A DNA stretch of 64,000 nt from an uncultured Brachyspira sp. GTDB taxonomy: Bacteria > Spirochaetota > Brachyspiria > Brachyspirales > Brachyspiraceae. The stretch lies in NCBI RefSeq assembly GCF_944393015.1, contig NZ_CALXYQ010000012.1:1-64000 (forward strand). Reading direction: 5' to 3'. A model generated the notes under the pieces. The model did not search any database and was not told where the DNA came from. It saw only the letters and a list, made by a program, of their open reading frames with translations. Below are positions 51,515 through 55,874 of this stretch, piece by piece (position 1 is the first letter of the stretch; every line of letters starts with the position of its first letter). A program made the position numbers and the translations under genes.

Positions 51515-53014
51515 ATGGATTATAATGAAAAGTTATATAATGTATTTTCCAGCGGGGAGCAAAGATTAGAATCATGGATGGCTGCTGTATTTACTAAAGA
51601 ATATGATCATAATATGAAAATTGAAGAATTCAGAGATATATTATCACAATCAGATGAATATATGGTATTAGAATTCAATGAAATAGAAGAATCTAAATTT
51701 ATAAGAGATAAATCTAAATGGGAAGCATATATTAAACTGCAGTATTTACCTATGGTTATGGATGAAGACGAACATTCTTGCGGATGCTGTCAAGATGATG
51801 ATGAACACTCATGTGGCTGCGGGCATAATCATGACGATGAAGAGCATTCTTGCGGATGCGGGCATAGTCATGATGATGAAGAGCATTCTTGCGGTTGCGA
51901 ACATAATCATGACGATGAAGAAAATAATGATGAGCTTAGTTTTTATGTAGCTTTAGTTGATGCTTCAAGCGTTACTGAAAATGTTCCTGAAATATTTTCT
52001 GTAAACACTGTAAGAGAAGATGATTATAAAGAAGCATGTCAATGTAAATATGCTGTACATGTATCTACAATATTTGATAATCATCCGCTTACTGATTATC
52101 AAAGACAATTAAAATTATTGGACAGTTTAGTTCCTGAATGTTCTATATTTTTAGATATGTCCTGTTATACAGCACATTCCGGAGATTGGCTTTCTTATAC
52201 ATCAACTTTCGCTTTGCCGCCTTCTTTGGATTATCTATACACTATACATGCTGTTTATGATGATGATAAAGACCCTAACAAAGTTGAATACTGGTTCCAT
52301 ACTCATGGACTTTACAGAGTCGGTTCTATAGAATTAGAGATAGTTGGAGTTGAAGATTCAAATGCTGCTTATGGGGCATTGCTTAATACTTGTGCAAAAA
52401 TGTTTATAGAAAGAGGAGTTCCTGAAGCCGGATTCAAATTTAATCCTGCATATAATACTTATGTATGCTGGTTCCCTTGGCAGGAGGCTTTGAAGAAACT
52501 AAATATTGCTGATGATGTTACAGGAAGTGCAAAAGATAGAAATGACGGAGTACATAATACACCTTCTGGTATTTTGCTTGCTGTAGATGCTGATGGTAAT
52601 TATCATTCTCTTGATTATTATAAAAATGAGCTTACAGATAACCCTATGTTTATGATGAGTTATTTTGAAACTTCTCTTATGAGAGAGGCTGCTTTTGAAA
52701 AATTAGAATATTTTTTAGAATTATTAAATAAAAATAAAGGCGATGACAAAACTTCTTTCTTAGTAAAATTAGGATACGGCGAAACAGAAGAAAACCCTAA
52801 TGATTTGGAGCATTTATGGTTTGATGTTCATGACTTTACTAATGACGGATATTTTGATGCTACTTTAATAAATGAACCTTATAAAGATTTAGGTATGCAT
52901 GAAGGCGACAGAGGAATGCATAGCATAGAAAGACTCACTGATTGGGAAATATATTCAGAAGAAAATAACTATAATTCAAGAAATATATATTTATTATTTC
53001 AAGAAGAAGAATAA
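51515..53014 (+). CDS. DUF4026-domain protein with a His/Cys/Asp-rich repeat insert
   Basis: 499 residues. The N-terminal and C-terminal parts match the layout of DUF4026 proteins (a large cytoplasmic domain with many aromatic residues, about 145-495). Residues 85-137 hold four imperfect copies of a 13-residue unit like EEHSCGCGHSHDD, giving many Cys and His ligands for zinc or other metals. Shine-Dalgarno GAGG. No partner gene is evident. Function unknown; metal storage or sensing through the insert is inference. Confidence 0.8.
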   Translation: MDYNEKLYNVFSSGEQRLESWMAAVFTKEYDHNMKIEEFRDILSQSDEYMVLEFNEIEESKFIRDKSKWEAYIKLQYLPMVMDEDEHSCGCCQDDDEHSCGCGHNHDDEEHSCGCGHSHDDEEHSCGCEHNHDDEENNDELSFYVALVDASSVTENVPEIFSVNTVREDDYKEACQCKYAVHVSTIFDNHPLTDYQRQLKLLDSLVPECSIFLDMSCYTAHSGDWLSYTSTFALPPSLDYLYTIHAVYDDDKDPNKVEYWFHTHGLYRVGSIELEIVGVEDSNAAYGALLNTCAKMFIERGVPEAGFKFNPAYNTYVCWFPWQEALKKLNIADDVTGSAKDRNDGVHNTPSGILLAVDADGNYHSLDYYKNELTDNPMFMMSYFETSLMREAAFEKLEYFLELLNKNKGDDKTSFLVKLGYGETEENPNDLEHLWFDVHDFTNDGYFDATLINEPYKDLGMHEGDRGMHSIERLTDWEIYSEENNYNSRNIYLLFQEEE

Positions 53015-54314: not shown

Positions 54315-54355
54315 TTATAATACTTCGATTAATAATTTAATAGTTTTTTAATAAG

Positions 54356-54385
54356 AGGATAGTATTTTTATGCTATCCTTTTTTA
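54356..54385 (+). terminator. Intrinsic terminator after fabH
   Basis: AGGATAG pairs with CTATCCT around an AT loop, then six T residues. Confidence 0.88.
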
Positions 54386-54415
54386 TTAGTATATAAAAAT
54401 CAATAAATAAAAACA

Positions 54416-54444
54416 TTGACAGCAAAAATACTTTTCAATATAAT
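54416..54444 (+). promoter_or_regulatory. Consensus promoter of the second MATE gene
   Basis: Perfect TTGACA, 17-bp spacer, perfect TATAAT. The predicted transcript starts near 54451, about 143 nt before the start codon. Confidence 0.85.
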
Positions 54445-54450
54445 TAATAT

Positions 54451-54595
54451 ATGAAACTTGTTATTGAATTAAGCTCCGGCAATATTTAATGATTTTATTG
54501 TTCGGGGCATGCTAAAAAACAGTATGCTATAGTTCTTTATAGTTATTAAAAATTATAAAATTTTTAATATGTTTTTAATTCAAGGAAAGTTTCAT
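54451..54595 (+). promoter_or_regulatory. Cloverleaf-like 5' leader that hides the MATE ribosome-binding site
   Basis: P1: ATGAAACTT (54451-54459) pairs with AAGTTTCAT (54587-54595), and TTGAATTAA (54464-54472) pairs with TTAATTCAA (54575-54583). Between the two sits an internal loop holding the AAGGA ribosome-binding site. Inside: P2 GCTCCGGCAATA with TATTG(T)TCGGGGC (54473-54508), P3 CATGCT with AGTATG (54508-54526), and P4 ATTAAAAAT with ATTTTTAAT (54545-54568). This looks like a translation-controlling riboswitch-like RNA; no known class was recognised. Confidence 0.7.
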
Positions 54596-55874
54596 GTATT
54601 TAATAAAATTTTCATTTATTTTATTCATTTCAAATATATTGCAATATCTATACAGCATTATAGATATAATATTTATTTCACATTTAGTCGGAGATAATGG
54701 CGTTATAGCATTAGGCAACTGTGCTTCTATAATGTTTATAATAACTTCTGTATCTTTAGGCTTATCAATAGGCGGTTCTGTTATAATATCAAAATATAAA
54801 GGTGCTGATGATAATATAAAATACAAACAATCTATAGGAAGTTTATTATTTTTATCTTCATCATTGGCTTTGATAATATCTGTAATAGGATTAATATTTT
54901 CAAGGCATATACTATCATTTATGAATATACCTAAAGAATCATTTAAATATGCTGATGATTATATAAAAATAATTTTTTCAGGAGTATTCTTTATATTTCT
55001 ATATTCTTCTTTATCTTCTGTAATCAAATCAAGCGGAAGAGAAAAAGCCTCATTATATTTTATTATAATAGCTGCATTAGTTAATTTTTTATTAAACTTT
55101 TTATTTTGTTATATATTAAAATTATCTGTAAAAGGTGCAGCATTAGCTACTGTAATATCTCAGGCTGTTTCATTCTTATTATCATTATATTATACAAGAA
55201 AATTATTAACTTTTAATTTTAACATCAAAATAATAAAGGAATTAATATTTATCTCTCTGCCTTGCATATTTCAAATGCTGATAATAAATATATCATATTT
55301 TTTTGTTAATATAATGATGAACAAATACAATGCTCTTGCAGGATTTACAATAGGCTTAAAAATAAATACTTTTATAGGTATGATTTCTTGGTCTATAGGA
55401 GAAGCTTTGAGTATAATCGTTTCAAAGAGTACAGGAGAAAAAGATTATATAAAAATAAAAAGCACAGTTAAATTTGCTATATTCTTAAACATTGCTGCTA
55501 CAGTTACAGCAGTGATATTTATACATTTATTAGTTAAAAATATAATCAGCATTTTCTACAGCGGAGATGAAAAAGTTATTAATGATATAATATTTTATCT
55601 TCAAGTATGTGCTTCATTCAATTGTTTTACTTATGCTTTGATGTATGTATTAGATAGTTTTTTAATAGGCATTCAAAAATCATATTTAGCCTTCATCAAT
55701 TCATTTATAGATTCCATAATATTTAAAGTGATAATATCCAAGATATTAGAAATCTATATGGGCTATTTAGGAATATACATTGCTATGGCATTATCAAGCA
55801 TTGTACCTGCTTTGATTGGGTTAATATATTTTTATATGTTTATAAGAAAAATTAATTATAATAAACTTCATTAA
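54594..55874 (+). CDS. MATE-family efflux transporter (second)
   Basis: 426 residues, about 12 membrane helices. Recognised by YSIIDIIFISHLVGDNGVIALG near 19-40 (a MATE helix-1/2 pattern with breaks), SLGLSIGGSVIISKYKG, and the mid-protein repeat INTFIGMISWSIGEALS. Normal MATE length, without the tail of the other paralogue at 30498. Cation-coupled export of drugs or metabolites; the substrate is unknown. Expression probably depends on the 143-nt structured leader directly in front. Confidence 0.88.
   Translation: MYLIKFSFILFISNILQYLYSIIDIIFISHLVGDNGVIALGNCASIMFIITSVSLGLSIGGSVIISKYKGADDNIKYKQSIGSLLFLSSSLALIISVIGLIFSRHILSFMNIPKESFKYADDYIKIIFSGVFFIFLYSSLSSVIKSSGREKASLYFIIIAALVNFLLNFLFCYILKLSVKGAALATVISQAVSFLLSLYYTRKLLTFNFNIKIIKELIFISLPCIFQMLIINISYFFVNIMMNKYNALAGFTIGLKINTFIGMISWSIGEALSIIVSKSTGEKDYIKIKSTVKFAIFLNIAATVTAVIFIHLLVKNIISIFYSGDEKVINDIIFYLQVCASFNCFTYALMYVLDSFLIGIQKSYLAFINSFIDSIIFKVIISKILEIYMGYLGIYIAMALSSIVPALIGLIYFYMFIRKINYNKLH

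Follow-up and report, generated by a model that had tools for sequence, protein, structure and literature searches.

A Brachyspira-specific leader RNA predicted to hide the translation start of a MATE transporter gene

Brachyspira are gut spirochaetes, and the stretch of DNA analysed here (the window, 64,000 nucleotides that form part of contig C12 of a 3.44-Mb Brachyspira genome) carries a MATE transporter gene whose transcript is predicted to begin with nucleotides that pair with its own start codon. The question raised by this locus is whether the leader RNA governs production of the transporter and, if so, in response to what. From sequence and calculation, we estimate at roughly 70% the probability that a genus-specific, cis-acting leader keeps translation of this one MATE gene off by default.

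The MATE locus and its distribution

The locus is arranged in the order fabH-like gene (recognized by a domain match), terminator-like hairpin, promoter, leader and MATE gene. The terminator-like hairpin, at 54353-54382 on the 3′ side of the fabH-like gene, would make the MATE gene a separate transcript. Both the perfect promoter and the 143-nt leader of the original prediction were recovered, the latter spanning 54451-54593 on the assumption that the A of ATGAAACTT, 6 nt past the -10 element, is the first base transcribed. The features referred to below are:

54416 to 54444, plus strand: promoter TTGACA-17-TATAAT, 12 of 12 consensus matches
54451 to 54459, plus strand: 5′ arm of P1a, AUGAAACUU, where the transcript is predicted to begin; 18 of 19 copies share the sequence (the exception, L017, starts GTG)
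54460 to 54463, plus strand: internal-loop strand GUUA, facing the Shine-Dalgarno core; GTTA in 19 of 19 copies
54464 to 54472, plus strand: 5′ arm of P1b, UUGAAU, with the extension UAA, which is less conserved (identity 0.82)
54473 to 54508, plus strand: hairpin P2 (GCUCC...GGGGC), 98.2% of cells paired
54507 to 54520, plus strand: conserved strand GCAUGCUAAAAAAC (the A-strand), with alternative calculated partners
54521 to 54527, plus strand: local partner AGUAUGC of that strand, from calculated folds
54526 to 54543, plus strand: hairpin P4, 93.7% of cells paired; covaries
54544 to 54569, plus strand: AU-only hairpin P5, in the minimum-energy folds of L001-L007, with an analogous hairpin in L016
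54575 to 54583, plus strand: 3′ arm of P1b with its extension, UUAAUUCAA, from the minimum-energy fold
54582 to 54586, plus strand: Shine-Dalgarno AAGGA, its GGA in the internal loop
54587 to 54595, plus strand: 3′ arm of P1a, AAGUUUCAU, including the AU of the start codon; with 60 nt of downstream sequence, 17 of 19 copies give P1a a calculated probability of 0.90-0.96
54594 to 55874, plus strand: MATE transporter gene, 426 aa (TIGR00797, E 1.2e-52; PF01554, E 1.1e-41)

The MatE domain scores above the curated cut-offs (179.2 bits against 147.4 for TIGR00797, and 142.6 against 24.9 for PF01554), and the solved structures nearest to the protein are MATE transporters, the best being BH2163 (E 9.3e-26), a resemblance that does not indicate the substrate. 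All seven named records matching the protein are from Brachyspira, including B. innocens and B. hampsonii, and the N-terminus read from the ATG at 54594-54596 is nearly identical in 13 of 13 copies with an open frame. Elsewhere in the window, the first third of the protein encoded at 51515-53014 contains tandem HSCGC(G/E)H(N/S)HDDE repeats that look metal-binding by eye.

A DNA search of 41 genomes, including that of the window, returned 54 matches. Full-length leaders make up 19 of these and come from 17 genomes. The remaining 35 are short (26-80 bases), fall mostly in the query's AT-rich 3′ half, and were set aside; three of them match P5 of the leader itself on the opposite strand. A short match over the 5′ part of the leader (G010:C1) was judged to be due to chance because neither P1 arm occurs in it and the model scored nothing below E 0.18 over its 901 bases. 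Eleven of the 19 leaders were used to build a covariance model, which returned the same 19 copies and nothing else in a search of the genus at E up to 1 (17 of 26 genomes). Across the phylum, the leader was found at E up to 0.01 in 17 of 296 genomes and one of 138 genera, with none in the 137 other sampled genera, under filters stricter than those of the genus search, such that weak matches could be missed.

By protein search, the orthologue is present with its start assembled in 16 genomes, in 17 copies altogether, and the leader stands ahead of all 17. A C-terminal MATE fragment at a contig end (G001) was left out of this count. The two further leaders precede remnants of the MATE gene, L017 (G024:C8) and L027 (G023:C1); at both sites the leader and promoter persist though most of the gene is gone. 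Best promoter matches ahead of the 19 leaders score 10-12 of 12, with an exact TTGACA in 18, and the distance from the best-scoring -10 element to the P1a 5′ arm is 5-7 nt in all 19.

No leader match accompanies the distant MATE paralogues of the same genomes (22-33% identical among the matches listed), and outside the genus the phylum protein search at E up to 1e-45 reached four genomes, at 28-31% identity. The 5′ arm pattern has no exact match in viral contigs, and plasmid records yielded MATE proteins of 24-27% identity, in three records. The leader and gene occur as a unit in several gene neighbourhoods, one of them beside fabH, and other neighbours are what we take to be malic-enzyme-like, biotin-like and Hsp20-like genes; the presumed Hsp20-like genes lie on the opposite strand downstream of the MATE gene at L093, L099 and L101-L104 (downstream of the leader in L104). 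Two genomes, G013 and G023, hold two leader copies each in different neighbourhoods; contigs of G013 match a metagenome bin, and mixing is possible in that genome. The element is thus found solely with one orthologue in one genus among the genomes searched, and shared ancestry therefore accounts for part of its conservation.

A predicted closing stem over the translation start

In the minimum-energy fold of the window's leader, nucleotides 1-22 pair with 54575-54595 through 18 bp, just as had been described from the sequence. The placement of the ribosome-binding elements was likewise upheld: the Shine-Dalgarno core GGA (54584-54586) sits in the internal loop GUUA/GGA between P1a and P1b, and the AU of the start codon is paired. 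Such a fold is improbable by chance. Its z-score against dinucleotide shuffles is -4.6, with none of 200 shuffles equalling it, and in a second set of 1000 shuffles, in which the last 24 nt (Shine-Dalgarno and start) were held fixed and the remainder permuted, only three matched the number of pairs between the last 24 and the first 25 nt. Freeing the start is calculated to cost 16.1 kcal/mol, as compared with 3.8±1.7 kcal/mol for these shuffles (maximum 11.3; 0 of 1000 reach 16.1). The MATE start is also the most sequestered of 36 ORF starts in the window, for which the median is 3.6 and the next highest value 10.8 kcal/mol, the starts being the first ATGs of ORFs of at least about 200 codons, some of which are perhaps not true starts.

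The stem is retained with little change across copies. All nine P1a pairs can form in 18 of 19 copies (in L027 by way of one G-U pair) and all six P1b pairs in 18 of 19, with five of six in L016; the loop on the Shine-Dalgarno side reads GGA in 15 copies, AGGA in three and GAA in the remnant L017. Identity in the 13 open-gene copies is 100% for the 5′ arm and loop and 97% for the 3′ arm, against 56% for the middle and the P2 loop. When 60 nt of downstream sequence are included, the calculated probability of P1a lies between 0.90 and 0.96 wherever the gene is present (17 copies) and falls to 0.01 and 0.27 at the remnants. Folded without downstream sequence, P1a has a probability of 0.97 in 18 copies, L027 among them, and of 0.73 in L017; the loss of P1 in L027 is therefore dependent on context. 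The closing stem is accordingly modelled wherever the gene persists and is predicted to be lost, in context, only at the two remnants, and the contrast between stems kept and stems lost with the gene consists of those two copies. Among the gene-bearing copies, L004, L005, L006 and L011 (four of 17) carry 1-nt deletions in the assembly, accompanied in two of them by more indels, yet P1 is kept; these frameshifts could be real decay or sequencing error.

The original prediction had looked to covariation in homologous leaders. Hairpin P4 does covary, as described below, and to that extent the expectation held; the closing stem shows no covariation, being near-invariant, and no comparable support comes from the remaining internal helices. 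Because P1 hardly varies, covariation is unable to test it, and the case for the stem is that random sequences so seldom form it, that it is near-invariant and that it disappears along with the gene, the last of these in two copies. Constraint on the RNA does not visibly extend into the coding region: synonymous identity over codons 1-20 is 0.755, inside the range of later full 20-codon blocks (0.573-0.787).

Because this start-pairing fold is conserved in the genus, the MATE gene is probably under translational control. As modelled, the leader, which is itself absent from Rfam, is an instance of a known general kind, Shine-Dalgarno-sequestering translational control. The P1 helix would block binding of the 30S subunit and would have to open for initiation, and a signal that either prevents or opens it would allow the exporter to be made when needed. 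Opening is calculated to cost between 10.9 and 15.9 kcal/mol where the gene is present (17 copies), and 9.6 and 6.4 kcal/mol at the remnants, with nucleotides 1-19 kept unpaired and the coding sequence omitted. Once formed, P1 should be hard to reverse through ligand binding alone. With an opening cost of about 11-16 kcal/mol, the decision is therefore most likely cotranscriptional, before the 3′ arm emerges, or is made by an active factor.

The interior of the leader

The region enclosed by P1 is not organized as originally described. Three internal stems and a four-way junction had been proposed; the minimum-energy fold of the window's leader has four internal stems and a five-way junction, and the middle of the leader folds otherwise in relatives, so the cloverleaf does not stand as a conserved fold.

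Parts of the interior are conserved. Pairwise identity is 0.90-0.92 in the P2 arms and 0.84 in the A-strand, GCAU[A/G]CUAAAAAACA, as compared with 0.56 in the P2 loop. Within P2, six of the 12 pairs vary, five through changes in one strand only and one through changes in both, and the strand-swap control is flat (3529/5000). The main calculated partner of the A-strand differs among copies and is of three kinds. In five copies (L001-L004 and L016) it is the adjacent strand, in five more (L005-L007, L026 and L027) a U-run that lies 61-75 nt downstream, and in the other nine a strand some 44-60 nt downstream. The 7-bp local duplex has a calculated energy of -9.1 kcal/mol in L001-L007 and L016 and a mean of -0.75 kcal/mol in the other 11 copies, where pairing of the A-strand downstream averages -11.75 kcal/mol, the division into eight and 11 copies having been chosen after the folds had been seen. 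Swap controls gave no support to the local helix (793/5000) or to pairing of the A-strand with the 3′ middle (2745/5000). The duplex is also the stem of the sole terminator-like hairpin in the leader (54506-54528), and an intrinsic terminator was rejected on the ground that a stem so different between the two sets of copies is not conserved.

In hairpin P4, two pairs are doubly changed, in three sequences each (L013, L014 and L016), and its own strands pair better than swapped ones (8/5000 permutations, over 17 of 19 copies, P4 not being delimitable in L015 and L017). The gene tree places L016 apart from L013 and L014 at weak nodes (0.38-0.53), and the double changes may represent one event or two. 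Taken over 19 sequences, P1a, P2 and P4 pair in 97.5% of cells, with a covariation score of 0.129 against 0.098 in shuffles (0/500 reach it); two of the five covariation measures, the number of double-change pairs (4 against 2.3; 47/500) and of pair types (156/500), are not striking, and the shuffles ignore relatedness. When 11 sequences were modelled with P1, P2 and the long helix, covariation did not exceed that of shuffles (500/500 reach the score), and no double change was seen in the long helix. No single fold topology for all copies was seen. Because the partner of the A-strand differs between groups of copies, the cloverleaf-type interior is, as far as the models go, one group's version.

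A sensor or factor-binding part, if present, would be this conserved interior of P2, the A-strand and P4, and the invariant GUUA facing the Shine-Dalgarno core would be the best place to seek a contact. Considered as an expression platform, the leader has a hiding state that is backed by calculation (16.1 against 3.8 kcal/mol), and an exposing fold common to the copies was not found: leaders lacking the last 20 nt gave partial pairings of the 5′ arm that differ from copy to copy.

Possible triggers and related systems

Among the candidate triggers, a small molecule is possible, at well under even odds. A metabolite, drug or ion would bind the interior during transcription and prevent P1 from forming, turning the exporter on, and the conservation of the P2 arms and A-strand, together with the competition of partners for one conserved strand, counts in favour of such a riboswitch. 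Against it stand the lack of an Rfam match, the restriction to one gene in one genus of the searched genomes, unlike widespread metabolite riboswitches, and an interior topology that varies among copies, which is unusual in an aptamer core. A ligand that stabilized the P1-closed junction would, moreover, turn the exporter off, which is unexpected for efflux. Read as a test for an aptamer, the helices give a mixed result, with P4 covarying, P1 near-invariant and P2 and the long-range helices without a swap signal. More speculative is the specific proposal of an RNA switch class of its own, so far limited to Brachyspira: the 5′-terminal nucleotides would themselves clamp a start codon 140 nt off, the partner choice of the A-strand would decide closure cotranscriptionally, and the ligand would be a substrate of the MATE protein.

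Two further readings are each unlikely, and about equally so. CsrA sites have a core like AAGGA, which the Shine-Dalgarno sequence here resembles, and the loop strand GUUA is invariant; both features are consistent with a trans-acting protein or small RNA that opens or locks P1. For a small RNA, however, the window's own genome has no second match to either 19-base P1 arm at fewer than three mismatches on either strand, and at three mismatches the 8 and 2 other places are comparable with the 8 and 3 of a reversed-pattern control; pairing could be weaker than the limit of that search. Alternatively, the leader might not switch at all, the 5′ helix simply lowering translation or shielding the 5′ end of the mRNA. 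The very stable stem and the drifting interior topology fit constitutive damping of this sort, as does a gene that looks dispensable (4 of 19 copies frameshifted and 2 of 19 reduced to remnants), yet the P2 arms and the GCAU[A/G]CUAAAAAACA strand are conserved above the loop and the middle, beyond what a plain spacer needs.

Control coupled to a ribosome on a mini-ORF at the 5′ end is less probable again. The statement that no peptide fits the leader was too strong, as the ATG at the predicted +1 opens the predicted frame MKLVIELSSGNI in the window and MKLVIE in many relatives. All 19 copies have a start there (18 ATG, one GTG), with frames of six to 13 codons that read MKLVIE* in 10 copies and encode 12-13 residues in nine. 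A ribosome on this AUG would cover the 5′ arm and free the MATE start, and stalling by a drug would induce the exporter, for which there is precedent in the drug-stalled leader ORF of Bacillus subtilis vmlR (excerpted text of PMC9226507). The mini-ORF lacks features of a leader-peptide attenuator, as no Shine-Dalgarno sequence lies inside the predicted transcript, which begins at that AUG, and the peptide falls into two length classes. A 5′ AUGAAA is in any case expected from the requirement to pair with the ...UUUCAU of the start region, so the AUG is also explained by pairing. The sole synonymous site of conserved codons outside the P1 pairs (the third base of GTT) is invariant in 19 copies, which argues weakly, being one site, against this mode of control.

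Some trigger of another kind is still less to be expected, and temperature least of all. An RNA thermometer would have P1 melt at host temperature, and a Shine-Dalgarno sequence in an internal loop with possible U-G contacts is thermometer-like. In ROSE and FourU thermometers the Shine-Dalgarno sequence is sequestered by an imperfect stem, as it is here, but the Brachyspira closing stem is long. In the window's leader, the calculated fraction of the AUG that is unpaired averages 0.36 at 25 °C and reaches only 0.42 by 42 °C and 0.54 by 60 °C, against a floor of about 0.33 set by the G, which is always unpaired. With the start opening little up to 42 °C and only partly even at 60 °C by calculation, the temperature control included in the original prediction was rejected.

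Comparison with known leaders agrees with the earlier remark that the fold matches no known class. Rfam 15 (cmscan, gathering threshold) gave no matches in the window, and at E up to 10 the only match in 54380-54720 was CRISPR-DR40 on the minus strand (E 7.4; 17.5 bits against a gathering threshold of 42). Leader-ORF attenuation of a resistance gene is known from ermC. In vmlR, stalling of ribosomes by the drug on the leader ORF controls the gene (PMC9226507, in part). The Brachyspira RNA resembles both in being a structured leader with a readable mini-ORF before a drug-related gene, and differs in that the mini-ORF lies at the predicted transcript end, has no Shine-Dalgarno sequence and is not conserved in length. 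Excerpts of PMC7736828 describe the guanidine-IV riboswitch (GGAM-1) as occurring in several phyla, with Spirochaetes among its lineages and MATE-class transporters among its associated genes, and as acting via an intrinsic terminator. The Brachyspira leader likewise precedes a MATE gene, but it pairs the Shine-Dalgarno and start region directly and its terminator-like hairpin is not conserved; the Rfam non-match counts against identity with guanidine-IV, or with any other individual riboswitch class, only if that library includes the class. For the yjdF riboswitch, which occurs in Spirochaetes and nearly always with yjdF genes, alternative pairing with the ribosome-binding site has been proposed (PMC4793209, in part). 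Pairing of the ribosome-binding region is predicted for the Brachyspira leader too, which precedes a MATE gene and gave no Rfam riboswitch match at E up to 10.

Among the open-access papers listed for Brachyspira, covered as titles and abstract openings and with subscription journals outside the scope, none concerned a regulatory leader of the genus, and the available portions of PMC3532143 and PMC8845278 make no mention of the MATE leader described here. The leader provides a specific, testable case for Brachyspira. The name riboswitch is plausible for it as one possibility, and unproven. Should its signal turn out to be a drug or metabolite, the leader could reveal the substrate of an exporter for which close orthologues were found in this genus only, and it would be an example of a switch-like element in which one clamp is kept while the interior drifts between species.
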